Source of the DNA: Holophagaceae bacterium
Lineage (GTDB): Bacteria; Acidobacteriota; Holophagae; Holophagales; Holophagaceae
Assembly: GCA_025361955.1 (NCBI GenBank)
Contig: JANYIU010000126.1
Location: 1 to 34,012 of the forward strand
Length of the DNA stretch: 34,012 nt
Direction: 5' to 3'
Both the position numbers and the translations under genes were made by a program. Shown here piece after piece: positions 9,393 through 24,094 of this stretch (within the stretch, counting starts at the first letter, position 1; every line of letters starts with the position of its first letter). The notes below the pieces were generated by a model. The model had not been told where the DNA came from and searched no databases. It worked only from the letters and a program-made list of their open reading frames with translations.

Positions 9393-11576
9393 ATGTCCAC
9401 TTCGGTGACTCAATTCTTCGAGGGACTGCAGTCTCGCGTTCTGGAGGCCACAGCCGCGCGAAGGCTGCAGGAGAAGATCGTGATCCAGGTCGGCTCGGCC
9501 ACCTGTGAGCACGCGGCTGGTTCCTTGGACGTCATGGATGAGTTCGTCAAGCATGTGAAATCATCCGGCCGTCAGGACGTGGTTCTGCGCAAGACCGGCT
9601 GCACCGGACGCTGCAGCAAGGAGCCCATCGTAGGGGTCACCGTTCCGGGCCAGCTGCCGGTGAAGTACGAGCGAGTGAATCGCGAGCTGGTGCACAAGAT
9701 CTTCACCAGCCACATCCAGGACGGGGCTCCGGTCGTAGAGAGCGCCCTGGACGACAGCCTTTCCGAGATCCACAAGAGCGAGTTCGTTTTCTGCGCTGGT
9801 GTCCGCTGCGGTCTGGAAGGCGAGAACGTCATGATGCACAAGTTCGCTCAAAAGCTGCGGGATCGGGCTCCCCATCCCGAGACCATCAAGGTGTCCAAGG
9901 TGGGCTGCTTCGGCGCTTGCAGCCAGGAGGACCGGGGCAAGTGCGCCTATATCCTGCACCGTCCCTCGAAGGCGATGTACCGCATCCATTCCGAGCAGGA
10001 TCTTGACGAGATCATCGCCACCCAGGTTCTGGGCGGGCAGCTGGTGGAGCGCCTCCTGGCGACGGATCAGCTCGTGAGCAAGGACTTCTTCGACATGTAC
10101 GGCGACGTTGCCTTCTTCAATCGCCAGAGTCGAGTGGCCCTGAGAAACTGTGGGGTCGTGGACCCTGAGAGCTTGGACGAGTACGTCACCTACGGTGGCT
10201 TCAAGGCACTGGGCACCGTACTCACCAACCGGGATCCCCAGTGGGTCATCAACGAAGTCCTCAAGGCCAGGCTCCGGGGCCGGGGGGGTGGCGGTTTCCC
10301 CACGGGCAAGAAGTGGCAGATGGCCTTCGATCAGAAGGAAACCACCCGCTACCTGATCTGCAATGGTGACGAAGGCGATCCCGGTGCGTTCATGGATCGT
10401 GGCATGCTGGAATCCGACCCCTTCAACATCGTCGAAGGCATGATCATCGGCGCTTACGCCATCCAGGCCCAAAAGGGCTTCCTCTACATTCGTGCCGAGT
10501 ACCCTTTGGCCATCAAGCGCATCCAGAACGCCATCGATCTCAGTCGTGCGTCTGGCCTGCTGGGCCAGGACATCATGGCTTCGGGTTACAGCTTCGATCT
10601 GGAGATCCGTCTGGGTGCCGGAGCCTTCGTGTGCGGCGAGGAGACGGCTCTCATCGCCTCCATCGAGGGCGAACGCGGCCAGCCCGGCCTGCGTCCTCCC
10701 TATCCAGTGGAGAAAGGTCTCTGGGGCAAGCCCACCTGCATCAACAACGTTGAGACCTTCGCCAACATCTCCGCGATCATTAATTTCGGCGGCGACTGGT
10801 TCGCGCGCATCGGCACAGCCGAGAGCGGGGGCACGAAGGTGTTCGCCCTGGCTGGCAGGGTGAAGCATACGGGCTTGGTGGAAGTGCCCCTCGGCACGAC
10901 CCTCAAGGATGTGGTCTTCGACATCGGTGGCGGGGTCCAGGACGACAAGCCTCTGAAGGCGGTCCAGACCGGGGGTCCCGCAGGCGGCTTCATCCCCGCG
11001 AAGTGGTTGGATATGGAGGTGGACTTCGCACCGCTCGCCAAGGCCGGTTCCATCATGGGCTCCGGCGGCATGATCGTCCTCTCCGAAGAGGACTGCATCG
11101 TCGATATCGCCAAGTTCTATCTCTCCTTCACCACGGATGAATCCTGCGGCAAATGCACCCCCTGCCGAGAGGGTACGACCCGCATGCAGGAGATCCTGGA
11201 GCGCATCACGATCGGTACTGCGGTGATGGGCGACTTGGACAAGCTCGAGCGGCTTGCCCAACTCTGTCAGCAGACCTCCCTCTGCGGTCTCGGTCGCGCT
11301 GCACCGAACCCGATCCTCAGCTCTCTGGATCACTTCCGCGACGAGTACCTCGAGCACATCATTGACAAGCGTTGCCGTTCCAAGAAGTGCGTGGCGCTGA
11401 TCCGCTACGTCATCAGCCAGGAGCTGTGCATCGGCTGCACCGTGTGTGCCCGCAACTGCCCCGTGGAGTGCATCTCCGGCAAGCGGAAGGAAGTCCACGT
11501 CATCGACCAGGAGCGCTGCATCAAGTGCGGGCAGTGCTTCCAGGTTTGCCGCTTCGACGCTGTCGAGCGGGGCTGA
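9393..11576 (+). CDS. hydB: NuoF-like (HydB/HndC-type) flavin subunit of [FeFe]-hydrogenase, with two N-terminal ferredoxin-like domains
   Basis: A 727-residue protein that carries FMN and the NADH site of a trimeric, probably electron-bifurcating hydrogenase. Two thioredoxin-like [2Fe-2S] domains come first. One has Cys38, 70 and 74 (SATCEH, GCTGRC). The other has Cys134, 139, 172, 176 and 184 (FCAGVRC, GCFGAC, KC). The NuoF core has the FMN/NADH glycine loop GRGGGGFPTGKKW (296-308), NGDEGDPGAF, GAGAFVCGEETAL, and the [4Fe-4S] ligands SCGKCTPC (585, 588, 591) with Cys631. Two C-terminal [4Fe-4S] motifs follow, CIGCTVCARNCP (679-690) and CIKCGQCFQVC (709-719). Typical HydB proteins have one N-terminal domain and about 600 residues, so the extra domain is like HndB fused to HndC. 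It is followed 33 bp later by hydA1. Confidence 0.93.
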   Translation: MSTSVTQFFEGLQSRVLEATAARRLQEKIVIQVGSATCEHAAGSLDVMDEFVKHVKSSGRQDVVLRKTGCTGRCSKEPIVGVTVPGQLPVKYERVNRELVHKIFTSHIQDGAPVVESALDDSLSEIHKSEFVFCAGVRCGLEGENVMMHKFAQKLRDRAPHPETIKVSKVGCFGACSQEDRGKCAYILHRPSKAMYRIHSEQDLDEIIATQVLGGQLVERLLATDQLVSKDFFDMYGDVAFFNRQSRVALRNCGVVDPESLDEYVTYGGFKALGTVLTNRDPQWVINEVLKARLRGRGGGGFPTGKKWQMAFDQKETTRYLICNGDEGDPGAFMDRGMLESDPFNIVEGMIIGAYAIQAQKGFLYIRAEYPLAIKRIQNAIDLSRASGLLGQDIMASGYSFDLEIRLGAGAFVCGEETALIASIEGERGQPGLRPPYPVEKGLWGKPTCINNVETFANISAIINFGGDWFARIGTAESGGTKVFALAGRVKHTGLVEVPLGTTLKDVVFDIGGGVQDDKPLKAVQTGGPAGGFIPAKWLDMEVDFAPLAKAGSIMGSGGMIVLSEEDCIVDIAKFYLSFTTDESCGKCTPCREGTTRMQEILERITIGTAVMGDLDKLERLAQLCQQTSLCGLGRAAPNPILSSLDHFRDEYLEHIIDKRCRSKKCVALIRYVISQELCIGCTVCARNCPVECISGKRKEVHVIDQERCIKCGQCFQVCRFDAVERG

Positions 11577-11609
11577 TTCTCCGTCCCCCACTGACCCAGG
11601 AACGCGACC

Positions 11610-13376
11610 ATGACCGAACCAATGATCAAACTGACCATCGACGGGGAACTCCTCGAGGTGCCCGCTGGCACCACCGTCATGAAGGCGGCGGAAAAATTGG
11701 GCATCAACATTCCCCGCCTCTGCTACCACCCCGATCTGAGCCTCGAAGGTGCCTGCCGCGTCTGCGTCGTGCAGGTAGAGGGCTTCAATCACTTCATCGC
11801 CTCCTGCAGCCAGCAGGTGTGGGAGGGCATGATGGTCCAGACCAACAGCCCCCAGATCCGGCAGGCTCGCCGGGATATCCTGGAACTCCTCTTGGACAAC
11901 CATCCAAAGGACTGCCAGACCTGCGAGCGCGATGGCAATTGCGAACTGCAGCGCCAGGCCTATCGCCTGGGTGTGCGCGAGCGGCTCTTCGAGGGCAAGC
12001 GCAAGCAGTATCCCCAGGATGAGAGCAGCAAATCCGTGGTCCGCAATCCGGAGAAGTGCATCCTTTGTGGGCGCTGCATCCGGGTCTGCGCCGAGGTGCA
12101 GGGTGTCCAGAACCTCAGCCAGCACGGCCGAGGTTTCAATACTGTCGTTGGCCCCGCCAATCTGGGCCCCATGGACGAGAGCGCCTGCATCCAGTGCGGT
12201 CAGTGCGTGGCGGTCTGCCCCACAGCGGCCTTCCTGGAGAAGGATCACACCGAGCGCGTGTGGGAAGCCTTGAGCGGAGCCGCTGGCAAGAAGCACTTGG
12301 TGGTTCACACGGCCCCCGCCATTCGCGCGACCATCGGCGAGTCCTTTGGCTTCCCTTTGGGCACACCGGTGACCGGCCAGCTGGTGACGGCGCTGCGACG
12401 GCTGGGTTTCGATGCCATATTCGATACGAACTTCGGCGCGGACCTCACCGTCATCGAAGAGGGAAATGAGTTCCTGAAGCGCTTGAATGGGGAGGGGCCC
12501 CTGCCGCTGCTCACCAGTTGCAGTCCCGGCTGGATCAACTTCATGGAAAAGTTCTACCCAGAGATGATCCCCCTTGCTTCCACCTGCAAGTCCCCGATGC
12601 AGATGACGAGCACCCTCATCAAGACCTACTACGCCGAGCGGAAGGGCATCGATCCGAAGGACATCTTCGTGGTGGCCATCATGCCTTGCGTGGCTAAGAA
12701 ATACGAAGCGGCGCGCCCCGAGCAGCTGCTCTCTCAAGGTGAGACTGTCACGGATGCCGTGTTGACCACTCGGGAACTGGCCTGGATGATCAAATCTTAC
12801 GGCATTGACTTCGCCAACTTACCGGAAGGCGAGTACGACCGTCCCCTGGGCGTTTCCTCGGGTGCGGGGGACATCTTCGGCACCACTGGCGGCGTCATGG
12901 AAGCTGCGCTGCGAACCGTCGCCGTCAAGCTGACGGGCGAGGAGCTGGGGCCATTGGTGTTCGAGGCTGTCCGCGGCATCGTTGGCCTCAAGGAGGCTAC
13001 CGTGAGCATCGGTGGCCAGGAGATCAACGTAGCGGTTTGCGACGGGCTCACGCATGCGAAGAAGGCTCTGGCCTACATCAAGAGTGGTGAGAAGAACTAC
13101 CATCTCGTCGAGATGATGGCGTGTCCTGGCGGCTGCATCATGGGTGGCGGACAACCCTATCCGCCCTTCGAGATGGACGTGCTGGACCCTGAACTCGCCA
13201 AGCTGCGCGCCAAGGCCCTCTATTCCGTGGATGCCCACAAGCAATTGCGCCGTTCCCACGAAAATCCAGCTATCACGAAGCTCTACGAGGAATACATCGG
13301 TGAGCCGAACGGCGAAAAAGCGCACGAGCTTCTGCATACCCATTATCAAGCCCGCATGCCTAGGGGGATCCGGTGA
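11610..13376 (+). CDS. hydA: [FeFe]-hydrogenase catalytic subunit (HydA/HndD type), copy 1
   Basis: A 588-residue protein. The N-terminal NuoG-like part holds a [2Fe-2S] cluster (Cys38, 49, 52, 66), a His-ligated [4Fe-4S] cluster (HPKDCQTCERDGNC; His98, Cys102, 105, 111) and two [4Fe-4S] clusters (CILCGRCIRVC and CIQCGQCVAVCP). The H-cluster domain has all three signatures: TSCSPGW (Cys304), MPCVAKKYE (Cys360) and MACPGGCIMGGGQP (Cys505, 509). It also has the complete C-terminal small-subunit-like tail (HENPAITKLYEEYIGEP). It reduces protons or oxidises H2 in the cytoplasm, with electrons shared with HydB and HydC. In L1 the second residue after the ligand is Ser, not the Cys of TSCCPGW enzymes; I recall this as common in HndD-type subunits. 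The ribosome site is AGGAA. Confidence 0.96.
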   Translation: MTEPMIKLTIDGELLEVPAGTTVMKAAEKLGINIPRLCYHPDLSLEGACRVCVVQVEGFNHFIASCSQQVWEGMMVQTNSPQIRQARRDILELLLDNHPKDCQTCERDGNCELQRQAYRLGVRERLFEGKRKQYPQDESSKSVVRNPEKCILCGRCIRVCAEVQGVQNLSQHGRGFNTVVGPANLGPMDESACIQCGQCVAVCPTAAFLEKDHTERVWEALSGAAGKKHLVVHTAPAIRATIGESFGFPLGTPVTGQLVTALRRLGFDAIFDTNFGADLTVIEEGNEFLKRLNGEGPLPLLTSCSPGWINFMEKFYPEMIPLASTCKSPMQMTSTLIKTYYAERKGIDPKDIFVVAIMPCVAKKYEAARPEQLLSQGETVTDAVLTTRELAWMIKSYGIDFANLPEGEYDRPLGVSSGAGDIFGTTGGVMEAALRTVAVKLTGEELGPLVFEAVRGIVGLKEATVSIGGQEINVAVCDGLTHAKKALAYIKSGEKNYHLVEMMACPGGCIMGGGQPYPPFEMDVLDPELAKLRAKALYSVDAHKQLRRSHENPAITKLYEEYIGEPNGEKAHELLHTHYQARMPRGIR

Positions 13377-13942
13377 GCCACTGCTGCCAAGTTTCGACCG
13401 ACAACTGGGAAGACGTGAAAGCAAAGTGCCTGACCGCGCTTCCCGAAGACATCGTCAACTACATTGATGACCACAAGGGCGACGAGCACGCTGAAAGCAA
13501 TCTCATCGCCATCCTGCACAGGGTCCAGCGGCACTTCGGCTATCTGGGGCAGGAACAGATGAATGCCGTCGCCCAGTTGGCCCAGATTCCTCTGGCCAAG
13601 GTGACCGGTGTCGCGACGTTCTATCATCTGTTCCGGCTGCAGCCCCGTGGCAAGCACGTCATCAGCGTCTGCATGGGCACGGCCTGCTACGTGAAAGGCG
13701 CTGAAAAACTCAGCCAGCGGCTCATGGACGAGCTGGGCATCCACTATGGTGAGACCACCAAGGACGGGATGTTCTCTCTGGACAACAGCCGCTGCCTGGG
13801 CACGTGCGGCCTGGCGCCGGTGATCATGGTGGATGATCAGGTCTATGGACCCGTGACGCCCAGCGAGATCACCATCATCCTGGAAAAGTACATCAAGCAG
13901 CCAAGGGCTGCCGCTCCGAAAGCCGCACTCGCTGTGCAGTAG
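13373..13942 (+). CDS. hydC: NuoE-like [2Fe-2S] subunit of [FeFe]-hydrogenase (HydC), copy 1
   Basis: A 189-residue protein with a GTG start overlapping the hydA1 stop (GTGA). After a helical N-terminal bundle (LIAILHRVQRHFGYL, GVATFYHLFRLQPRGKH) comes the thioredoxin-like ferredoxin domain, with ligands Cys100, Cys105 (CMGTACYVKG) and Cys141, Cys145 (CLGTCGLAPV). This is the 24-kDa/NuoE pattern. It should pass electrons between the HydB flavin and the HydA clusters. The order B-A-C differs from the C-B-A order of the second operon. An Ala/Pro/Lys-rich tail of about 15 residues follows the fold. It is the last gene of operon 1 before a hairpin terminator. Confidence 0.94.
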   Translation: MSHCCQVSTDNWEDVKAKCLTALPEDIVNYIDDHKGDEHAESNLIAILHRVQRHFGYLGQEQMNAVAQLAQIPLAKVTGVATFYHLFRLQPRGKHVISVCMGTACYVKGAEKLSQRLMDELGIHYGETTKDGMFSLDNSRCLGTCGLAPVIMVDDQVYGPVTPSEITIILEKYIKQPRAAAPKAALAVQ

Positions 13943-14313: not shown

Positions 14314-14967
14314 ATGAACATCTCGACCAAGGTCATGGGACGACTGGCGCGCTATCGTGCGCTGCTCACTGACTATTTTCCGAAGGAGAAGACCCACATC
14401 TTCTCCCATGACCTCGCCGCGATGATGGGACTGTCCGCTTCCCAGATCCGACGGGACCTGATGTGTCTCGGCTATTTCGGGGTCCCCCGCTACGGCTACG
14501 AGATCTCGGAACTGGTGAAGCACATCAATAACGTCTTGGATGCCAGCAAACTCCATCACGTGGCGGTGGTCGGGGCTGGGAATCTGGGCCGGGCCTTGAT
14601 GACCTTCCTGGAAAGCCGCCGGGCCACCCTGAAGATTGTCGCCGCCTTTGATGACGATCCTGACAAGGCGAACCGGGTGCTCAATGGCGTCCCCTGTTTT
14701 CACATGGATCTGGTTGAAGAAGTAGTGAAACGCGACGACATTCGCATCGCCATCCTTTGCGTCCCGGGCGCAGTCGCCCAGCGGGTCACGGACCTCCTCG
14801 TCAAGTCCGGAGTGAAAGGTATCCTGAACTTTGCCCCGGTTCCCATCCGCATTCCCGTCGGAGTCGTTCTCGAAGAGATTGACCTCACCAGTGCCCTCGA
14901 AAGGGTCGCTTTTTTTACTAATAACCGCGCCAACGCGCCAAAGGAGAAACGGCATGCCGACCGTTAA
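14314..14967 (+). CDS. rex: Redox-sensing transcriptional repressor Rex (copy 2)
   Basis: A 217-residue protein, colinear with copy 1 from MNISTKVMGRLARYRALL onward and very similar throughout. It has the winged-helix recognition region LSASQIRRDLMCLGYFGVPRYGY, the NADH-binding loop VAVVGAGNLGRAL, and VLEEIDLTSALERVAFF for domain swapping. The main differences are in the last 15 residues, which are polar and probably disordered. The 3' end overlaps hydC2 by 14 bp, so this copy is translationally coupled to its hydrogenase, unlike copy 1. Sequence alone does not show whether the two copies have divided targets or form heterodimers. Confidence 0.95.
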   Translation: MNISTKVMGRLARYRALLTDYFPKEKTHIFSHDLAAMMGLSASQIRRDLMCLGYFGVPRYGYEISELVKHINNVLDASKLHHVAVVGAGNLGRALMTFLESRRATLKIVAAFDDDPDKANRVLNGVPCFHMDLVEEVVKRDDIRIAILCVPGAVAQRVTDLLVKSGVKGILNFAPVPIRIPVGVVLEEIDLTSALERVAFFTNNRANAPKEKRHADR

Positions 14968-15439
14968 AAGCGTTGAGACCATTCTGAAGGAACACCCGAA
15001 CGCCGGGCGGGATCACCTGATCCCGATCCTCCAGGAGGTCCAAGAGTCGGAAGGATTCCTGTCCCAGGAATCCATCACCAAGGTCGGGAGGGCGCTGAAC
15101 CTGCCATCCAGCAAGATCTTTGGTGTCGCGACCTTCTTCAATATGTTCCGCTTCCAGCCCAAGGGTAAGTACCACGTGATGGTTTGCCGTGGCACCGCCT
15201 GTCACGTCAAGGGCTCCGGGAAGTCCCTGGACATGGTCACCAAGACCCTCAAGATCCAGCCTGGCGAGACCAGCCGCGACAAGCTGTTCAGCCTTGAGAT
15301 CGTGGCCTGCATGGGCGCATGCGGACTGGCTCCGGTGGTGAACATCAACGGCCAGTTTTACGCCAAGATCTCCCCGATGAAGCTGCAGCGCATCATCGAA
15401 GAGTGCCGCGAGAAGGAGCAGACTCATGCCAACGCTTGA
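14954..15439 (+). CDS. hydC: NuoE-like [2Fe-2S] subunit of [FeFe]-hydrogenase (HydC), copy 2
   Basis: A 161-residue protein. The start MPTVKSVETILKEH at 14954 has an AAGGAG ribosome site at 14941 and gives normal family length; a longer reading from 14831 lies inside rex2 and is discarded. It has the helical N-terminus (HLIPILQEVQESEGFL, GVATFFNMFRFQPKGKY) and the [2Fe-2S] ligands Cys78, Cys83 (CRGTACHVKG), Cys119 and Cys123 (CMGACGLAPV). It overlaps both rex2 and hydB2 by 14 bp. It is shorter than copy 1, which has extra residues at both ends. It should connect HydB2 and HydA2. Confidence 0.95.
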   Translation: MPTVKSVETILKEHPNAGRDHLIPILQEVQESEGFLSQESITKVGRALNLPSSKIFGVATFFNMFRFQPKGKYHVMVCRGTACHVKGSGKSLDMVTKTLKIQPGETSRDKLFSLEIVACMGACGLAPVVNINGQFYAKISPMKLQRIIEECREKEQTHANA

Positions 15440-18400
15440 CGCTAAGGTCGATCGCGGATTCTGCTGGGATACCCCGGCCCAGCCCGCATCCGCACTCCTG
15501 AATGCTCTCAAGAGCGGCCCGTTCAAAGCCGTCTCCGGCACCAAACTCACTGAGCTCATCGCCTCCCTGCGCCGCGAAACTGTGACCCGGCCCGTGATCT
15601 ACGTGGGCGCGGGCACTTGCGGCCTGGGCGCTGGCGCCGACAAGACCCTCGCACAGATCAAGGCCTTCTGCGCCTCCAAGCAGCTGGAAGTGGAAGTCAA
15701 TGAAGTGGGCTGCGTGGGCCTCTGCTCCGAAGAGCCGGTCGTGGACATTCAACTGCCCGGTCTGGCCCGGGTCTCCTTCGGCAATGTGACGGCCGACAAG
15801 GTCGATGGCTTGCTCGAGCAGGTCTTCGCCGGCAAGATCCCCAGTGACCTACTCCTGGGTCAGCACCGCAACGATCGCCACAAGATCTACGACAAGGTAG
15901 CCTACCTGGATCAGCACCCCTTCCTGGCTCTCCAGAAGCGCTGGGTGCTGGCTAATTCGGGCCTCATCGACTTCAACTCCATCGACGAATACATCGCCCG
16001 GAGCGGCTATTCGGCCCTCTTCAAACTCCTTCACAGCAAGACCCGCCAGGAGGTGGTCGACGAGCTGTTGGCGAGCGGCTTGCGGGGGCGTGGCGGTGGC
16101 GGTTTCCCCACGGGCAAGAAGTGGCAGATGGCCCTCAACACGCCGAGCGAGCAGAAGTACATGATCTGCAACGCTGACGAAGGTGATCCTGGTGCGTTCA
16201 TGGATCGCGCGGTCTGCGAATCCGATCCCCACCGGCTCCTGGAAGGCATGATCACCGGCTGCTACGCGATTGGTGCCACCAAGGCCTACATCTATATCCG
16301 GGCCGAGTATCCCCTGGCCATCCAGAATCTCAAGACGGCCATCGCCAAGGCCAAGGAATACGGCCTCCTGGGCCAGAACATCCTGGGCAGTGGCTTCAAC
16401 CTCGAGATCATCATCAAGATGGGTGCGGGTGCCTTCGTGTGTGGCGAGGAAACCGCCCTGATGCACAGCATCGAAGGCAAGCGTGGCATGCCGCGCCCCC
16501 GTCCTCCCTATCCCATTCAGTCCGGTCTCTTCGGCAAGCCCACGGTGATCAATAACGTGGAGACCTTCGCCAACGTCCAGACCATCATGCAAAACGGTGC
16601 GAAGGCATTCGCCGCTATGGGGACCGAAGGTTCCAAGGGCACCAAAGTGTTCGCCATGTCTGGCATGGTCCGCCGCACAGGCCTCGTGGAGGTTCCCATG
16701 GGCACCTCCATCCGCAGCGTCGTCTTCAGCGTGGGTGGCGGTATCCCCAACGGCAAGAAGTGCAAGGCCGTCCAGATCGGCGGCCCTTCGGGTGGCTGCA
16801 TCCCCGAGTCTCACCTGGAACTGGCCTGCGACTATGAAGAGTTGAAGAATTTCGGCGCCATCATGGGCTCCGGCGGCCTTGTGGTCCTTGACGAAAACAC
16901 CTGCATGGTGGATCTCGCCAAATTCTTCATGGAATTCATCCAGTCTGAGAGCTGCGGCAAGTGTATCCCGTGTCGTGAAGGCACGCGCAGAATGCTGGAG
17001 ATCCTCAAATCCATCACCCAGAATCGCAAGAGCGAGGAAGGCATTGATTCCCTCATTCGTATGAAGGGCGTGATGCTTCTCCAGGAACTGGGCGAAAGCA
17101 TCCGTCGCAGCTCGCTATGCGGCCTTGGCCAGACGGCTCCGAACCCGGTGCTGTCCACCCTGAAGTGGTTCCGGGAGGAATACGAAGCCCACATCTACGA
17201 TCGCCGCTGCCCGTCCGGGTCCTGCCGTGAGCTCGTGGGCGCCCCCTGCCAGTCCGCCTGCCCCGTGGGGACAGAAGTATGGCGCTACGTGGCCCACATC
17301 GGCCTGGGCGAATACGAGGAAGCCTATCGCGCGATCCGCTCCGCGAATCCGTTCCCCTCCGTCTGCTCCCGCGTTTGCAACCACCCTTGCGAGACCGTCT
17401 GCCGCTGCGGCACCACGGGCGGAGAGCCGATCGCCATCCGGCACCTCAAACGCTTCGTGGTGGATCGCGTCGAACCTGCCTCCTACAAGTACGGCATCCG
17501 GGTCCGTCCCAACGCGCCGCGTATCGCCGTCATCGGTGCCGGCCCCGCCGGTCTCACGGCCGCCCACAGCCTATCCATCCTGGGCTACAAGGTCACGGTG
17601 TTCGAGCAGGAAGCCAAGGCCGGTGGCATGCTGGTGTCCGCCATTCCTGAATACCGCCTCCCCCGCCCGACCCTTCAGAAAGAGATTGATTCGCTGCTCA
17701 ATGAGAATGTCGAGGTCAAATACAACCAGGCCCTGGGCAAGGACTTCACCGTCGCAAGCCTGAAGAAGGACGGCTACAGCGTCGTGTATGTCGCCATCGG
17801 TTCCCAGCGCAGCAAGAAGCTGGGCCTCCCTGGCGACGATGCTGAAGGAATTCTCCCCGGTATCGAGTTCCTCAAGGCCTACAATCTGCACGGCTTGGAA
17901 ATCGCTAAGGGCCGCGTTGGCATCATCGGTGGCGGCAACAGCGCCCTCGATGCCGCCCGGGTGGCCATCCGCCAGAAGAACGTGGATTCCGTGACGGTCT
18001 TCTACCGACGCACGCGCGGCGAGATGCCCGCCTACGCCGAAGAGATCGACGCGGCTCTGGAAGAGGGCATCAAAGTCGAGACCCTGGTGGCTCCTGTGGG
18101 CGTCAAGTCCCAGAACGGCAAGCTCACCGGCATCGAGTTCCAGCGCAACGAGCTGGGCGAGCGGGATGACAGCGGCCGTGCCAGGCCGGTACCCCTTCCG
18201 GGGAGCGAATTTGTCGCGGAAATGGACACCTTGGTGGTGGCCATCAGCGAGGAGCCGGAGACAGAAACCCTCAATGGCCTCAAGACCAGCCGCTGGGGTT
18301 CCCTGGTCATCAACCCGGAATCCTATATCACCAACGAAGCGGGTGTCTTTGGCGGCGGCGACGTCGTCACCGGCCCCAGCACGGTCATCGAGGCCATCGC

Positions 18401-18680
18401 CGCGGGCAAGAATGCCGCGATCATGATGGATCGTTTCATGACCGGCAAGCAACTCAAGAAACTCACCAAAGTGGTACTGCCCACGGTGTACGTCGCCCCG
18501 GTCAGTGCAGAGGATGAAGGCGAAAGCATTGGCCGCATTCACCCCGAACATCTCCCCGTGGAAGCACGCGTGAAGAACTTCAAGGAAGTGGATCTCTGCC
18601 CCTCCGAGAATCACGCGATGTGCGAAGCGCGGCGCTGCCTGCGCTGCGACATCGAATTCACCCAACCGGCTATGAATTGA
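15426..18680 (+). CDS. hydB: HydB (NuoF-like) subunit fused to a GltD/NfnB-like NAD(P)H oxidoreductase
   Basis: A 1084-residue fusion. Residues 55-135: thioredoxin-like ferredoxin domain (GTCGLGAG Cys65; GCVGLC Cys96, 100). Residues 150-590: NuoF core with GRGGGGFPTGKKW (221-233), NADEGDPGAF, GAGAFVCGEETAL and [4Fe-4S] ligands Cys510, 513, 516, 565. Where HydB1 has a two-cluster ferredoxin, this protein continues with a GltD-type module. It has a cysteine-rich Fer4_20-like region (PCQSACPVGTEV 607-618; CSRVCNHPCETVCRCG 647-662), an FAD loop GAGPAG (704-709), a nucleotide loop GGGNSA (835-840) followed by YRRTR (860-864, arginines typical of NADPH binding in this family), the second FAD motif GVFGGGDVVTGP, and a terminal CEARRCLRCD. 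This suggests a hydrogenase with an NADH-type and a separate NADPH-type flavin site. The AAGGAG ribosome site lies within hydC2. Confidence 0.93.
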   Translation: MPTLDAKVDRGFCWDTPAQPASALLNALKSGPFKAVSGTKLTELIASLRRETVTRPVIYVGAGTCGLGAGADKTLAQIKAFCASKQLEVEVNEVGCVGLCSEEPVVDIQLPGLARVSFGNVTADKVDGLLEQVFAGKIPSDLLLGQHRNDRHKIYDKVAYLDQHPFLALQKRWVLANSGLIDFNSIDEYIARSGYSALFKLLHSKTRQEVVDELLASGLRGRGGGGFPTGKKWQMALNTPSEQKYMICNADEGDPGAFMDRAVCESDPHRLLEGMITGCYAIGATKAYIYIRAEYPLAIQNLKTAIAKAKEYGLLGQNILGSGFNLEIIIKMGAGAFVCGEETALMHSIEGKRGMPRPRPPYPIQSGLFGKPTVINNVETFANVQTIMQNGAKAFAAMGTEGSKGTKVFAMSGMVRRTGLVEVPMGTSIRSVVFSVGGGIPNGKKCKAVQIGGPSGGCIPESHLELACDYEELKNFGAIMGSGGLVVLDENTCMVDLAKFFMEFIQSESCGKCIPCREGTRRMLEILKSITQNRKSEEGIDSLIRMKGVMLLQELGESIRRSSLCGLGQTAPNPVLSTLKWFREEYEAHIYDRRCPSGSCRELVGAPCQSACPVGTEVWRYVAHIGLGEYEEAYRAIRSANPFPSVCSRVCNHPCETVCRCGTTGGEPIAIRHLKRFVVDRVEPASYKYGIRVRPNAPRIAVIGAGPAGLTAAHSLSILGYKVTVFEQEAKAGGMLVSAIPEYRLPRPTLQKEIDSLLNENVEVKYNQALGKDFTVASLKKDGYSVVYVAIGSQRSKKLGLPGDDAEGILPGIEFLKAYNLHGLEIAKGRVGIIGGGNSALDAARVAIRQKNVDSVTVFYRRTRGEMPAYAEEIDAALEEGIKVETLVAPVGVKSQNGKLTGIEFQRNELGERDDSGRARPVPLPGSEFVAEMDTLVVAISEEPETETLNGLKTSRWGSLVINPESYITNEAGVFGGGDVVTGPSTVIEAIAAGKNAAIMMDRFMTGKQLKKLTKVVLPTVYVAPVSAEDEGESIGRIHPEHLPVEARVKNFKEVDLCPSENHAMCEARRCLRCDIEFTQPAMN

Positions 18681-18689
18681 GGTATCGCC

Positions 18690-20411
18690 ATGTTTGCCAT
18701 TGAAGCGAACGGCCAGAAAATTGAGGCCAAGAAGGGCGAAACGATCCTACAGACCCTCACGAGAGCCGGGATCAACGTGCCCACGATCTGCCATATGGAA
18801 GGGCTGCTGCCCTCCGGAACCTGCCGCATGTGCGTTGTCGAAGTTGAAGGCTTCGGCGGCCTGGTTCCCTCCTGCTCCCACCCCGTTGCCGAGGGCATGA
18901 AGATCCGGACGAATACGCCGGAAGTCATGCAAACCCGGAAGACGATCATCGACCTGCTTCTGAGCAACCATCCGGACGACTGCCTTTATTGCGCCCGGAA
19001 CGGCAACTGTGACTTGGCCAAGCTGGCCGCCGATAACGGCGTCCGGGATCGCACCTTCCACGGTGAACGCACCCATCGCCCCAAGGACATCTCCAGTCCC
19101 GCCATCATCCGGGACCCGGATAAGTGCATCCTCTGTGGCAAGTGCGTCCGCATGTGCGAGGAAATCCAGGGTGTCTCCGCCATCGATTTCGTCAATCGCG
19201 GGTCCAAAGCCTATGTCGGGACGGCCTTCAACGAGGGCCTGAACGTCTCCAGCTGCATCAGTTGCGGTCAGTGCATCCTGGTCTGTCCTACCGCCGCCCT
19301 CTCCGAACACAAGTACATTGACGAGGTGCTCCAGGCCCTGGCCGACCCCGAGATGATGGTAGTGGTCCAGCATGCCCCAGCGGTGTCCGTCTCGATCGCC
19401 GAGGAATTCGGTTTCAAGCCCGGCACCGACTTTGATGGCAAAATGGTTGCCGCCCTTCGCCGGGTGGGCTTCGATCGGGTCTTCGACACCTCGTTCGCCG
19501 CCGATCTCACCATTATGGAAGAGGGTTCGGAACTGGTGCATCGCGTCCAGAACAACGGCCCGCTGCCTATGTTCACCAGTTGCTCGCCGGGCTGGGTCAA
19601 GTTCGTCGAGCAGTTCTACCCTGAATTCCTGCCCAACGTGTCCACCTGCAAGAGCCCTCAGCAAATGATGGGTGCGGTCATCAAGTCCTTCTTCGCTGAG
19701 AAGGAGAACCTCGATCCCAAGAAGATCGTGAGCGTCTCCATCATGCCTTGCACGGCCAAGAAGTTCGAATGCGGACGCCCTGAAATGGGCCGTGATTTCG
19801 TGCCGGATGTGGACTTCGTGCTGACCACCCGCGAGCTGGCCGAACTGTTCCGGATCACAGGCGTGAATCCCGCGGCCATCGAGCCCGAGCCTCCCGATAA
19901 TCCCTTTGGTGAGCGTTCCAGCGCGGGCAAGCTGTTCGGAGCTTCTGGAGGAGTGATGGAAGCCGCCATCCGCAGCGCCTACTTCCTGCTCACGGGCGAG
20001 GAGTTGAAAGAATACAAGATTCAGGATCTGCGCGGAATGAAAGGCTCCAAAGAACTGCGCGTCAAGATTGGTGATCTTGAAGTGGGCGCCGCCGTGGTCT
20101 CCAGTCTCGGCCAAGCGCGGAAGCTGATGGATGAGATCAAGGCCGGACGCAGCGACATCCACTTCATCGAAGTCATGACCTGCCCCGGCGGTTGCATCAA
20201 CGGTGGCGGTCAGCCCATTGGCGCTGATCAGGAAGCGATCAAGGCGCGCATGAACGCGCTCTACCAGATCGACCGTGACGATCGTCTGCGGGTCAGCCAC
20301 AAGAACGAATGGGTGCAGCGACTGTATACTGAATTCCTAGGCAAGCCGCTGGGTCATAAGAGCCACGAGCTGCTCCATACTCACTACGAAAAGCGCGAAG
20401 TTCTGCTGTGA
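18690..20411 (+). CDS. hydA: [FeFe]-hydrogenase catalytic subunit (HydA/HndD type), copy 2
   Basis: A 573-residue protein of the same plan as copy 1. [2Fe-2S] ligands are Cys34, 45, 48, 62. The His-ligated cluster is HPDDCLYCARNGNC (His94, Cys98, 101, 107). Two [4Fe-4S] motifs are CILCGKCVRMC and CISCGQCILVCP. H-cluster signatures are TSCSPGW (Cys298), MPCTAKKFE (Cys354) and MTCPGGCINGGGQP (Cys498, 502). The C-terminal small-subunit segment is complete (RVSHKNEWVQRLYTEFLGKP). All ligands are intact, so it should be catalytic. The ATG follows hydB2 by 9 bp with a GAGGT ribosome site. It is followed after 19 bp by a receiver gene, so the signalling genes are probably in the same operon. Maturases (HydE, F, G) would be needed from elsewhere. 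Confidence 0.96.
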   Translation: MFAIEANGQKIEAKKGETILQTLTRAGINVPTICHMEGLLPSGTCRMCVVEVEGFGGLVPSCSHPVAEGMKIRTNTPEVMQTRKTIIDLLLSNHPDDCLYCARNGNCDLAKLAADNGVRDRTFHGERTHRPKDISSPAIIRDPDKCILCGKCVRMCEEIQGVSAIDFVNRGSKAYVGTAFNEGLNVSSCISCGQCILVCPTAALSEHKYIDEVLQALADPEMMVVVQHAPAVSVSIAEEFGFKPGTDFDGKMVAALRRVGFDRVFDTSFAADLTIMEEGSELVHRVQNNGPLPMFTSCSPGWVKFVEQFYPEFLPNVSTCKSPQQMMGAVIKSFFAEKENLDPKKIVSVSIMPCTAKKFECGRPEMGRDFVPDVDFVLTTRELAELFRITGVNPAAIEPEPPDNPFGERSSAGKLFGASGGVMEAAIRSAYFLLTGEELKEYKIQDLRGMKGSKELRVKIGDLEVGAAVVSSLGQARKLMDEIKAGRSDIHFIEVMTCPGGCINGGGQPIGADQEAIKARMNALYQIDRDDRLRVSHKNEWVQRLYTEFLGKPLGHKSHELLHTHYEKREVLL

Positions 20412-20430
20412 TGACTATCGAGGCGATGCC

Positions 20431-20820
20431 ATGACATTGACAAAGAAGATTCTTGTTGTAGATGACGACATCGATCAGCTGGATCATGTCGCCATGATCC
20501 TGAAAGCGGAAGGCTACGACGTGATCAGGGCTCAGGGACAGAAGGAGGGCGAGGATGCCATCCTCACCACGATTCCCGATCTGGCCATCCTTGATCTCAT
20601 GATGGAGAACATGGACTCCGGTTTCGTGCTCTGCAATCAGATCAAGCGCCTGTATCCCGAAACCCCGGTGATCCTGCTGACAGCTGTCAAATCCGCGACC
20701 GGCTTGGATTTCTCACCCAAGTCCAGCGGCGCGGCAAGCTGGATCAAGGCCGATGTGCTACTCGATAAGCCGGTCCGGCCCGAGCAGCTCCGGAATGAAG
20801 TCAAGCGCCTCATGGCGTGA
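20431..20820 (+). CDS. Single-domain response regulator (CheY-like receiver)
   Basis: A 129-residue stand-alone receiver: acidic pair Asp11/Asp12 (VVDDD), phospho-acceptor Asp55 (LAILDLMMEN), Thr84 (LLTA) and Lys113 (LDKP). All catalytic positions are present and there is no output domain. An unusual short insertion (KSATGLDFSPKSSGAASWIKAD) lies between the Thr and Lys strands. It sits between hydA2 and the hydrogenase-like sensor kinase, so the kinase is a natural phosphodonor. The output must be a protein interaction. A role in relaying a redox or H2 signal is inferred from context. Confidence 0.9.
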   Translation: MTLTKKILVVDDDIDQLDHVAMILKAEGYDVIRAQGQKEGEDAILTTIPDLAILDLMMENMDSGFVLCNQIKRLYPETPVILLTAVKSATGLDFSPKSSGAASWIKADVLLDKPVRPEQLRNEVKRLMA

Positions 20821-20826
20821 ACTGTC

Positions 20827-20860
20827 GCCGGGGAAGCCACATCCGTGTGGCTGCCCCGGC
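20827..20860 (+). other. Hairpin between receiver and sensor-kinase genes
   Basis: GCCGGGGAAGCCACA, a TCCG loop and TGTGGCTGCCCCGGC form a 15-bp stem with one A-G mismatch. It lies 6 nt after the receiver stop and 13 nt before the sensor-kinase ATG. No T run follows, so it may be an attenuator or an mRNA end-protecting element that lowers kinase expression relative to the upstream subunits. Confidence 0.5.
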
Positions 20861-20873
20861 GGAGAGGACCTTG

Positions 20874-22928
20874 ATGAGCGAATGTGGGGAAACCCGGCCA
20901 GAAAAGGCACTGGAATCTCTTTGCTTCGTCAAAGAGGTCAAGAACCGCTGTCGGATTTGCTACACCTGTGTGCGCGAGTGCCCCGCCAAGGCGATCAGTA
21001 TCTCCAAGAGCCAGGCCATCGTCGTTCCCGAGCGCTGCATTGGGTGCGGTAACTGTCTCAAGGTCTGCAGTCAGCAGGCCAAGAAGATGGTTTCCTCGAT
21101 CGAAGAGGTGGAAGCCCTGCTCAAGAGTGGGGCTTCCGTCGCTGCCTGCCTTGCTCCCAGCTTCCCGGTGGAGTTCCAGGCCGAGTTTGATTTCAGGGTG
21201 CTGGTCGGCATGACCCGTGCCTTGGGTTTCGATTTCGTCACTGAGGTGGCCTTCGGGGCCGATCTGGTGGCGGATCGTTATCGTGAAGCCCTGATGTACA
21301 ATAAGGGACGCCAATACATCGCCACCACGTGCCCTGCCATCGTGGGTTTCGTGGAACGCTACCATCCCGATCTCGTGCCCTTCCTCTCTCCCATCGTATC
21401 CCCGATGGTCGCCATGGCCCGAGTCCTGCGCTCGCTGCACGGCCCCGAATTGAAAATCGTGTTTGTGGGTCCCTGCGTCGCGAAGAAAGCCGAGGCCATG
21501 GACCCCGACGTCATCGGCGGACCGGACGCGGTGCTGACCTTCCCGGAATTGCGCGAGATCTTCCAGCATGCGGGGATCACCTCAAACGTTGCGGATCCCT
21601 GTGATTTCGATCCTCCCCAGCCCCGGCGTGGTTCGCTGTTCCCCATCAGTCATGGCATGCTGCAGGCCGCCGAGATCCACGAAGATCTGCTGACCAACGA
21701 TGTGGTGGCCACGGATGGACTTCACAACTTCATGAATGCCCTGAACGAGTTCGCGGCGGGCGGGATGGAGGCGAATCTGGTCGAACTGCTCTCTTGCAAT
21801 GGCTGCATCGCTGGACCGGGTCTGAGCAGCAAGGAGAACCTCTTCCAACGTCGCGCCCGGGTCAGCCACTACGCCAGCTACCGCGAACGCACCCAGGACC
21901 AGGAGCAATGGCAGAGGTCCATCGATCATTTCGCCAACCTGGATCTGACACGATCCTACCGATCCCTGGACCAGCGGATCACGGACATCGACGAGCATGA
22001 AATCGCCGGGATCATGAAGCGGATGGGCAAGCAGTCGGATGAGGACGAACTCAACTGTGGAGCCTGTGGCTATCATTCCTGCCGCGAGCACGCCATCGCC
22101 ATCCACAAGGGACTGGCCGAGAGCGAGATGTGCCTGCCCTATGTCATCAATGAGCATCTCAAGACCATCGTTCAACTTTCCGACCTGAATGATCGCCTCG
22201 CGACGACCCAGGAGACCTTGATGCACTCTGAGCGTCTGGCTAGCATGGGTCAGCTGGCGGCCGGTGTTGCCCACGAGATCAACAATCCTCTCGGCGTGGT
22301 GATCATGTACACCAATCTCCTGCTGGAGGAGTGCAGCAAGGATACGGAATTCCAGGGCGATCTCCAGATGATCGCGGAGCAGGCGAACCGCTGCAAACGG
22401 ATCGTCGCGGGTCTGCTGGACTTTGCTCGGCAGAACAAGGTGGCCCATCAGCCGGTCGACATCCGCGAGCTGGTGTCAGCAACCCTGTCGAACCTTCCGC
22501 AGCCAGAGAATGTGGAGCTGGAGATCAGCCACGAGGAAATCGATCCCATCGCGGAAGTGGACCGGGACCAGCTGATTCAAGTGCTTCTCAATCTTGTGGT
22601 GAATGCCTATGACGCCATGCCTGATGGCGGCAAGCTCTGCGTGCGCACCAAGGGAGATGACTCCTGGATCACCTTCGAGATCCAGGACACGGGCATGGGC
22701 ATTCCCCGCGAGAACCTGAAGAAGCTTTTCGAGCCCTTCTTCACCACCAAGTTGATGGGGAAGGGGACCGGGTTGGGTCTCCCCGTGGTCTACGGAATCG
22801 TCAAGCTGCACCGGGGTGACATTTCGGTGGAATCCAACGCGGATCCAAGTCTCGGCCCGACGGGAAGTACCTTCCGGGTCAAACTGCCTCGCGAGGCGCG
22901 GACCCATTCCGGAAAGGGCGTGCTGTGA
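20874..22928 (+). CDS. Sensor histidine kinase with [FeFe]-hydrogenase-like domain (HydS/HsfB-like)
   Basis: A 684-residue protein starting at MSECGE (GGAGAGG ribosome site); the longer reading from 20817 would include the hairpin. Two [4Fe-4S] ferredoxin motifs come first ([11 protein letters not shown] 26-36; [11 protein letters not shown] 55-65). Then comes a domain like the hydrogenase H-cluster domain, with altered signatures: TTCPAIVGF (Cys153) for TSCxPx[10 protein letters not shown] (Cys201) for MPCxxKxxE, and [10 protein letters not shown] (Cys308, 311) for the third. A PF04060-like Fe-S motif follows (CGACGYHSC, Cys395-403, with Cys420). The C-terminus is a histidine kinase: HEINNPLG (His467), N-box [16 protein letters not shown] and GKGTGLGL. 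It has no membrane segment, so it is cytoplasmic. It fits the sensory hydrogenase group proposed to report H2 or redox state. The ligand sensed here is inferred. Confidence 0.88.
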
Positions 22929-24094
22929 GCGAGACCTTACATCTCCTGGTGGTGGACGACGAGATCGGCATGCGTCTGTCCGTGGAACGGGCTCTCCGTC
23001 ACTATTCAACGCACGCGCCTGATCTTCAGCATGAAGTGAACTTCCGGATCAGTCAGGCTGAAACCGGCGAAGCCGCGCTGGCACTGATCGATTCAGATAC
23101 GCCCGACATTATTCTGTTGGACTACAAGCTCCCGGGGATCTCAGGTCTGGAGGTCCTGCTGGCCCTGAAAGAGCGAAAACTGGACATTCTCGTGGTGATG
23201 ATCACGGCTTATGCCTCCCTGGAGACTGCGGTTCAAGCCACCAAGAGCGGAGCTTTTGACTTTCTGGCGAAGCCCTTCACGCCCGAAGAACTCCGGGCCA
23301 CGGTCCACAAGACCACCAAGCACTGCATGGTGCAGCGCCAAGCCGCGAAGCTTGCCGGAGAGCGACGCCAGATCCGCTTTGAATTCCTGTCGGTCCTCGC
23401 CCACGAACTGAAATCCCCTCTGGCGGCGGTAGAAGGAAACATGTTCATCCTTCGGGACCACTTGGCCGGGGATGCGATCCAGGCTTACGACCACCTGGTG
23501 AATCGTTCCATCATCCGGTTGGAGGGGATGAAGAAACTGATCTTTGATCTGCTCGATCTGACCCGCATCGAGTCAGGGCAGAAAAAGCGATCCCTCATGG
23601 ATATCGATGTATGCGCCATCGCCCGTCAATCCATCGAGACTCATGGGGTCCTCGCGCTGGATAAGCAGGTTTCCATCTCCTTCGAAGGTCCTGAATCCCT
23701 CGTCTTTAAGGCAGATGCCGGAGAGCTTGAGATCATCTTCAATAACCTGATCTCGAATGCGGTGAAGTACAACCAGGATGGAGGAACGGTGGTCGTGTCC
23801 GTTCGGGAGCTCGGTGCCACCGTGTCCATCGCCGTCAGGGATTCCGGGATCGGAATGACCAAGGAAGAAGTCTCCAAGTTGTTTGGCGAGTTCATCCGCA
23901 TCAAGAACCAGAAAACGATGAATATTTTAGGCAGCGGCTTGGGGCTCTCCATCCTCAAGCGGTTGTCGCACCTTTACGGTGGCCAAGTCAGTGTGGAGAG
24001 CGAACCCGATCAGGGAAGTACCTTTACGGTAACATTGCAAAAAGATGCCGTGGCTGCCTCCGCAGGCAGTGAATCCATCCCTATCACAGTCTAG
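22925..24094 (+). CDS. Receiver-histidine kinase hybrid
   Basis: A 389-residue protein with a GTG start overlapping the sensor-kinase stop (GTGA). Residues 1-130 form a receiver with Asp11/Asp12, Asp66 (LLDYKLP), Thr94 (MITA) and Lys116 (AKPF). The rest is a histidine kinase: LAHELKSPL (His160), N-box FNNLISNAVKYN, DSGIGM and GSGLGL. There is no membrane or PAS domain. The order receiver-then-kinase suggests that phosphorylation by the upstream hydrogenase-like kinase tunes this kinase, making a relay. No DNA-binding domain is encoded in the operon, so the final target is unknown. It is the last gene of the operon. The 197 bp after it, before convergent mutS2, show no gene and no clear terminator. 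Confidence 0.9.
   Translation: MSETLHLLVVDDEIGMRLSVERALRHYSTHAPDLQHEVNFRISQAETGEAALALIDSDTPDIILLDYKLPGISGLEVLLALKERKLDILVVMITAYASLETAVQATKSGAFDFLAKPFTPEELRATVHKTTKHCMVQRQAAKLAGERRQIRFEFLSVLAHELKSPLAAVEGNMFILRDHLAGDAIQAYDHLVNRSIIRLEGMKKLIFDLLDLTRIESGQKKRSLMDIDVCAIARQSIETHGVLALDKQVSISFEGPESLVFKADAGELEIIFNNLISNAVKYNQDGGTVVVSVRELGATVSIAVRDSGIGMTKEEVSKLFGEFIRIKNQKTMNILGSGLGLSILKRLSHLYGGQVSVESEPDQGSTFTVTLQKDAVAASAGSESIPITV

Follow-up and report, generated by a model that had tools for sequence, protein, structure and literature searches.

What would an electron-bifurcating hydrogenase do if the ferredoxin-docking tail of its flavin subunit were exchanged for a complete NADP(H) module? This question is raised by hydB2, a gene of a Holophagaceae bacterium (Acidobacteriota) in a 34,012-nt stretch of DNA (contig JANYIU010000126.1 of assembly GCA_025361955.1; the whole stretch is called the window below), where it lies between the genes for a NuoE-like subunit, HydC2, and an [FeFe]-hydrogenase catalytic subunit, HydA2 (Table 1). 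From sequence comparisons and structure models we favor, with modest confidence, the view that HydA2-HydB2-HydC2 is a Bfu-type [FeFe]-hydrogenase with just this exchange and that flavin mononucleotide (FMN)-based bifurcation would drive the reaction 2 H2 + NAD+ + NADP+ <-> NADH + NADPH + 2 H+.

Architecture of the fused flavin subunit

The first-pass annotation of this locus had described HydB2 as a HydB whose C-terminal ferredoxin is replaced by a full Fer4_20/flavin adenine dinucleotide (FAD)/NAD(P) module, and this is borne out by the Pfam domains of the intact open reading frame (ORF) at 15426-18680. The tail comprises Fer4_20 (residues 600-682, 3e-22) and Pyr_redox_2 (699-994, 3e-26), and Pfam gives no match in HydB2 to a Fer4-type ferredoxin domain (IPR017896, B3/B4), which is present in the HydB1 protein encoded in the same window. 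All of the motifs listed at that time are indeed found, i.e., GAGPAG, GGGNSA (835-840), YRRTR (860-864), a second FAD motif, and CEARRCLRCD, which ends at residue 1075. That the joint might be an artefact of assembly or of a frameshift, named beforehand as what would speak against the fusion, was considered and rejected. Besides the intact ORF, five genomes of the sister genus, two of them closed, carry the full-length fusion at 75-76% identity, so that it is neither chance nor an assembly error; among 396 genomes of the phylum, 67 have a match to HydB2 at E<=1e-200, most across the whole length, and the fusion also occurs in organisms that, judged by record title, belong to more than a dozen phyla, including Moorella thermoacetica. 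A dN/dS ratio of 0.15-0.28 places the tail under purifying selection. The AlphaFold2 model of HydB2 has a mean pLDDT (predicted local distance difference test) of 89.4 and a pTM (predicted template modeling score) of 0.81, and Foldseek matches its core to bifurcating HydB, StnB, and NfnB chains and its tail to StnC and NfnA chains. The NCBIfam model NF009410 (PRK12771, "NAD(P)-binding protein") covers residues 559-1075 (window 17100-18650) and starts inside the NuoF tail, suggesting that the joint is already part of an annotated family.

The solved bifurcating HydB and StnB chains align with HydB2 to about residue 604, and judged by its predicted FMN, SLBB, B1, and B2 sites this core is that of a bifurcating-type HydB. 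Its Pfam domains are Complex1_51K (216-385, 5e-46), SLBB (408-457), and NADH_4Fe-4S (496-589, 3e-30), preceded by a thioredoxin-like domain that carries cysteines 65, 96, and 100 in an alignment of 81 full-length fusions from many phyla, to which all counts out of 81 refer. The ligands of the B1 cluster (C510, C513, C516, and C565) are invariant in 81/81, and so are C493, H589, C595, and C600, aligned to C438, H525, C531, and C536 that make up the B2 site of A. mobile HydB (PMC8880783) and whose T. maritima counterpart has been named the Zn hinge (PMC9499530). The residues that split bifurcating from non-bifurcating HydB are A/E232, M234, and GGPSG in T. maritima numbering (Losey et al., PMC7311640), and HydB2 has the bifurcating-type set (A257, M259, and GGPSG), unchanged in all 81. 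By motif, F395 fits Phe 367 near the FMN of T. maritima HydB (F in 44/81, Y in 35/81), in a column that is unanchored on the T. maritima sequence.

The solved sequences closest to the tail are the NADPH modules of Stn/Nfn-Bfu complexes (9bov_A, 9n5u_A, and 8oh5_C), and its predicted ligands make it a tail of the Stn/Nfn-Bfu kind, not of the NfnB kind. Its first cluster cysteine, C608, follows eight residues past the last B2 ligand, and all seven tail cluster cysteines as well as R744, R861, and R862 are invariant in 81/81. Among them, C1071 and C1074 align with the C-terminal motif of 8oh5_C and 9bov_A and with the N-terminal motif of NfnL; the ligand pair is thus N-terminal in NfnL (EAxRCLxC) but C-terminal in HydB2 and StnC. 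Following the ligand scheme of the homologous dihydropyrimidine dehydrogenase, we assume one cluster to be held by C608, C659, C1071, and C1074 and the FAD-proximal one by C612, C651, C655, and K675. The position of K675 (codon 17448-17450) is Lys in 73 and His in 8 of the 81 sequences and Glu in none; the sequences with His are L084, L086, L090, L091, L095, L096, L099, and L105, several of them NiFe-associated. The Glu of a "GEP" motif was tried as an NfnB-type ligand and rejected, as the alignment places K675 there. Its counterpart in StnC is K170, in a protein whose FAD is held to be non-bifurcating (PMC10482914). C-terminal CLxC ligands together with Lys where NfnB has Glu suggest that the tail FAD of HydB2, too, is probably a non-bifurcating flavin. 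The arginine that binds FAD N5 in NfnB (R201) corresponds to R744 in HydB2 and to R239 in StnC, and since StnC shares it, R744 does not discriminate between bifurcating and non-bifurcating FAD.

Origin, partners, and relatives of the fusion

Where this tail came from was addressed with one tree of the core (HydB residues 1-604) and a separate one of the tails; their supports come from quick methods with no bootstraps, and deep branches are uncertain. In the core tree, the HydB2 clade groups (support 100) with ordinary ferredoxin-tailed HydBs (L121-L125 and L132) at 59-66% identity, which share the hydC-hydB-hydA order, mostly have rex and/or hydS alongside, and come with a HydA that is 58-64% identical. 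In the tail tree, it groups, again with support 100, with the tails of fused BfuBs that adjoin a glutamate-synthase-like protein. Between residues 541-600 and 601-660, identity to the ferredoxin-tailed orthologues drops from 65-72% to ca. 20%, whereas it climbs from 53% to 68-73% against the glutamate-synthase-type BfuB. On the core tree, parsimony requires the tail type to have changed 6-8 times, and the approximately unbiased test rejects a topology that unites all GltD-tailed forms in one clade (p = 3e-6; lnL difference 311). The break in block identity and the discordance of the two trees are most simply explained if the HydB2 lineage acquired its tail by an exchange at the hinge, with another BfuB as the donor. 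Read in this way, HydB2 is a recombinant, a natural chimera of a ferredoxin-type HydB core and a glutamate-synthase-type BfuB tail, and the fusion design is widespread and was assembled more than once.

The neighboring catalytic gene is an [FeFe] HydA at 35 of the 81 fused loci. At 22 others, it is a Glu_synthase-like protein accompanied by a HoxU-like FeS protein, at five a [NiFe] hydrogenase (L084, L086, L088, L091, and L095), and at five an FdhA-like molybdopterin protein (L062, L078, L092, L093, and L109), with the remaining 14 unassigned and many of these at contig ends. So varied a neighborhood suggests that the tail is not tied to hydrogenases and travels with the BfuBC core, a pattern that we infer would be expected of a part that selects the carrier.

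The loci with a Glu_synthase-like protein (L021-L036 and L042-L050, e.g., L046:5543-11917) encode a Bfu-like set of a HydC-like protein, a GltD-fused BfuB, a 226-aa HoxU/NuoG-N-like FeS protein, and the ca. 530-aa Glu_synthase-like protein itself. This set is probably undescribed so far, shows 67-84% identity between phyla, and has a GAF-kinase and a sigma-54 regulator upstream. The Glu_synthase-like protein has no match in the PDB or NCBIfam, and its structure model (pLDDT 45) is too poor for use.

The architecture of HydB2 is not new as such, though this had been implied when the locus was first annotated: it was published in 2024 (mSystems) as "sub-type I" BfuB, in which DPD_II plus FAD/NAD(P) takes the place of B3/B4 as predicted from sequence, with homologs in Hydrogenedentota, Spirochaetota, Pseudomonadota, Planctomycetota, Verrucomicrobiota, Kiritimatiellota, and Thermodesulfobacteriota (PMC11406978). 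Its authors raised a possible second bifurcating center and called for study; beyond that paper, we found nothing further on GltD-fused HydB in the open literature. HydB2 shares with sub-type I BfuABC the replacement of B3/B4 beside an H-cluster subunit. It differs in that its core lies outside the clade of the Hydrogenedentota fusion L081, which has a BfuD-like small gene and stands in here for the sequences of that paper, and in that its tail groups with those of the glutamate-synthase-type BfuBs; the operon in the window has no separate BfuD gene. Members from Acidobacteriota may already be drawn in the supplement of PMC11406978. What we add is the placement outside the L081 clade, the Stn-like tail with its predicted Lys ligand, the visible swap point and donor type, and the other catalytic partners.

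Compared to the Group A3/HydABC enzymes of T. maritima, A. woodii, and T. kivui, the H-cluster of HydA, HydC, and the FMN, B1, B2/Zn hinge, and bifurcation-type residues of HydB are shared, but a C-terminal 2x[4Fe-4S] ferredoxin domain stands there where HydB2 has its NADP(H)/FAD module. By the strict 2022 definition (IPR017896 tail), HydB2 is therefore not a canonical BfuB, though it probably works like one. The Stn/Nfn-Bfu complexes (S. ovata StnABC, 8oh5; C. saccharolyticus, 9bov; T. sibiricus, 9n5u) share the GltD-like module, its C-terminal CLxC, and the Lys (K170), combined with a HydBC-like bifurcating core. In these complexes, the module resides in the A-type subunit (StnC; NuoG/FdhF-like), where it takes the place of the H-cluster and feeds the FMN via B1, while the B subunit keeps its ferredoxin tail. 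In HydB2 it is instead part of the B subunit and fills the ferredoxin position, with the H-cluster kept and the ferredoxin tail gone. With NfnAB, finally, HydB2 shares the GltD fold, the FAD/NADP site, and two [4Fe-4S] sites, but it has Lys for Glu at the proximal cluster, its ligand pair is C- and not N-terminal, and its operon is without NfnA.

Candidate reaction and competing readings

In the current model of Bfu enzymes, electrons of the third substrate enter via the A subunit and B1 to the FMN, and the low-potential arm runs from C1 over B2 and B3/B4 to ferredoxin (PMC9304861, PMC8880783, and PMC10482914). With B3/B4 replaced, this arm would end at FAD/NADP(H), and the ferredoxin-tailed HydBs of orthologous C-B-A operons likewise indicate that the NADP module occupies the ferredoxin slot. 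We propose that the mobile ferredoxin-docking tail was swapped, just past the B2/Zn hinge, for a Stn-type module with two [4Fe-4S] clusters and FAD. Electrons from H2 would then travel from the H-cluster by way of HydA2 and B1 to the FMN of HydB2, which would send one to the NAD(H) side and the other via C1 of HydC2 and B2 to the two tail clusters, and the tail FAD would collect electron pairs and hand a hydride to NADP+. The bifurcation center would still be FMN/B2/C1, with the FAD acting as an ordinary two-to-one-electron converter. The net reaction given above could run toward H2 or NAD(P)H as set by conditions, making both the confurcation of NADH and NADPH to H2 and an NAD+-aided, H2-driven supply of NADPH possible; the presumed NADH-sensing Rex and the sensory HydS kinase encoded in the same block would fit such a reversible valve. 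We infer this cofactor content, electron path, specificity for NADP over NAD, reaction, and direction from the gene, its domains, ligands, and conservation, and the swap history, which are directly visible. Computed with the physiological potentials (E') of PMC9304861 Table 1, the H2 pressure at balance is ca. 4 Pa for NADH alone, ca. 190 Pa for NADH+NADPH, ca. 7.9 kPa for NADPH alone, and ca. 17 kPa for NADH+ferredoxin; lying between NADH alone and NADH+ferredoxin, the coupling to both nucleotides would be useful.

The coupling of H2, NAD(H), and NADP(H) without ferredoxin, already suggested in the first-pass annotation, stands as the simplest reading with good HydA2 and HydC2 subunits adjoining, but its description as built from parts of NfnAB does not: the operon has no NfnA, the tail is of the Stn/Nfn-Bfu type, and a separate canonical NfnAB pair is encoded elsewhere in the genome (G000:C36:3265-4515, L134), with the Glu signature of NfnB (LERF; ERF motif). 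In favor of FMN-based bifurcation to NAD+ and NADP+, every firmly testable bifurcation feature is kept in the core (A257, M259, GGPSG, B1, and B2/Zn), and the nearest solved relatives of the tail are NADPH-binding StnC/NfnA modules. Several points weigh on the other side. GltD-tailed HydBs are known from sequence alone, and even for ordinary HydABC there is debate on what C1, B2, and the tail do, including whether B2 holds Zn or a [2Fe-2S] cluster. NfnAB, PntB, and PFOR are also encoded in the genome, so HydB2 is not the sole link between the pools. Moreover, non-bifurcating HydB of the S. wolfei type is recognized in the literature by its lack of B3/B4 (PMC7311640 and PMC11406978), and bifurcation may have been lost with these clusters. 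HydB2 would then belong to a simple H2:NAD(P)+ hydrogenase whose two nucleotide sites work independently and which also equilibrates NADH and NADPH, in line with the failure of S. wolfei-type HydB without B3/B4 to bifurcate (PMC7311640 and PMC11406978). We regard this as rather improbable given the bifurcating residues and the intact B2 site of HydB2, and because purifying selection acts on a tail that, without coupling, would short-circuit NADH and NADPH, seemingly to the harm of the cell.

Ferredoxin might also have remained a substrate by docking on the distal [4Fe-4S] cluster of the tail, which would result in a four-way exchange between H2, NAD(H), NADP(H), and ferredoxin. Fer4_20 clusters do donate to ferredoxin in NfnB, StnABC handles NADPH, NAD+, and ferredoxin together (PMC10482914), and with PFOR in the genome a ferredoxin pool exists; but HydB2 has no Fer4 domain by Pfam, and the site proposed for ferredoxin in StnABC/Nfn-Bfu is the ferredoxin-like tail of the B subunit, exactly the part replaced here, which leaves this exchange a minor though real prospect. 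Very improbable, by contrast, is a second bifurcating flavin in the tail, as raised in PMC11406978, where the FAD would bifurcate like that of NfnB besides the FMN. The fold and FAD pocket of the tail are NfnB-like and the equivalent of NfnB R201 is kept (R744, 81/81), but StnC, whose FAD is considered non-bifurcating (PMC10482914), has the same arginine, the position at the proximal cluster holds Lys (His in 8/81) and never the Glu of NfnB, and the operon is without an NfnA-type high-potential branch.

Genomic setting and implications

The genes around hydB2 form an operon-like block, rex2-hydC2-hydB2-hydA2-response regulator-hydS-receiver/kinase, that spans 14314-24094 (Table 1). We take the product of rex2, from its sequence, to be the redox (NADH/NAD+) sensing repressor Rex. 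By gene-neighborhood comparison, the order Rex-hydC-hydB-hydA is common to the sister genus, G072, the Phycisphaerae locus L041, and several ferredoxin-tailed orthologues. HydC2, whose ORF starts with MPTVKS, has all four cluster cysteines by motif check. HydA2 scores 826 bits, above cut-off, against NCBIfam NF040763, the model of NADH-dependent [FeFe] group A6, and all three H-cluster motifs are present (P1, TSCSPGW at 296; P2, MPCTAKK at 352; P3, EVMTCPGGCINGGGQ at 494). The maturase HydG is encoded in the same genome, so that the H-cluster can probably be made. In the H-domain of HydS the cluster motifs deviate, and hydS and the adjoining receiver-kinase gene are kept with the operon in several genomes.

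Table 1. Features of the hydB2 locus (window coordinates; residue numbers refer to HydB2)
Feature	Position	Strand	Basis
rex2, operon head, 3' end overlapping hydC2	14314..14967	+	ORF
hydC2, NuoE-like [2Fe-2S] subunit (cluster C1)	14954..15439	+	Pfam 2Fe-2S_thioredx, 4e-48
hydB2, fused flavin subunit, 1084 aa	15426..18680	+	single uninterrupted ORF
Thioredoxin-like N-terminal domain (B5 position), ~55-140	15588..15845	+	alignment to 9n5u_B and others
FMN/NADH domain, 216-385, with bifurcation-type residues A257 and M259	16071..16580	+	Pfam Complex1_51K
SLBB domain, 408-457, GGPSG at 452-456	16647..16796	+	Pfam and alignment
Predicted B1 [4Fe-4S] and B2/Zn site, 493-600	16902..17225	+	alignment
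Junction of ferredoxin tail and NADP module, 600-608	17223..17249	+	block identities
Fer4_20 (DPD_II), two predicted [4Fe-4S] sites: C608, C612, C651, C655, C659, K675	17223..17471	+	Pfam, conservation, StnC alignment
FAD/NAD(P) domain: GAGPAG, R744, GGGNSA, YRRTR, second FAD motif	17520..18407	+	Pfam Pyr_redox_2, alignments
C-terminal CEARRCLRC, 1066-1074; C1071 and C1074 predicted distal [4Fe-4S] ligands	18621..18647	+	alignment
hydA2, [FeFe]-hydrogenase catalytic subunit	18690..20411	+	NCBIfam NF040763, H-cluster motifs
Response regulator, kept in operon	20431..20820	+	ORF and neighborhood comparison
hydS, sensory hydrogenase-like H-domain fused to histidine kinase	20817..22928	+	Pfam Fe_hyd_lg_C, HisKA, HATPase_c
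Receiver-histidine kinase protein, last gene of the conserved block	22925..24094	+	ORF and neighborhood comparison

A second hydrogenase set lies at 9393-13942 of the window in the order hydB1-hydA1-hydC1, with its own rex just upstream. In HydB1, the N-terminus carries two thioredoxin-like domains, the ferredoxin tail is of the ordinary kind, and GGPAG replaces GGPSG; the set resembles sub-type III of PMC11406978 ("BAC" order, double B5). In the sister genus, a further hydA-hydB-hydC set is found a few kb upstream (L128:3-3500 and L129:1717-5700), and its tailless HydB resembles the non-bifurcating sub-type II.

HydB2 bears on how HydABC enzymes bifurcate and on whether they need the mobile B3/B4 tail for it, since orthologous operons that differ in the tail of HydB (ferredoxin domain or NADP module) amount to a natural experiment. 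Should two acceptors still be coupled by the NADP-tailed enzyme, bifurcation would reside in FMN/B1/B2/C1 and the tail would only pick the carrier. H2 would also have a direct link to the two pyridine-nucleotide pools, and the working range is predicted to be around 200 Pa H2, between those of the NADH-only and the NADH+ferredoxin hydrogenases. More broadly, we see an evenly balanced case for GltD-tailed BfuB being a general NADP-specific branch of the Bfu family that was put together repeatedly and in which a one-domain swap at the B2/Zn hinge would select the low-potential carrier whatever the third substrate, be it H2 (FeFe or NiFe), formate, or the substrate of the glutamate-synthase-like protein.

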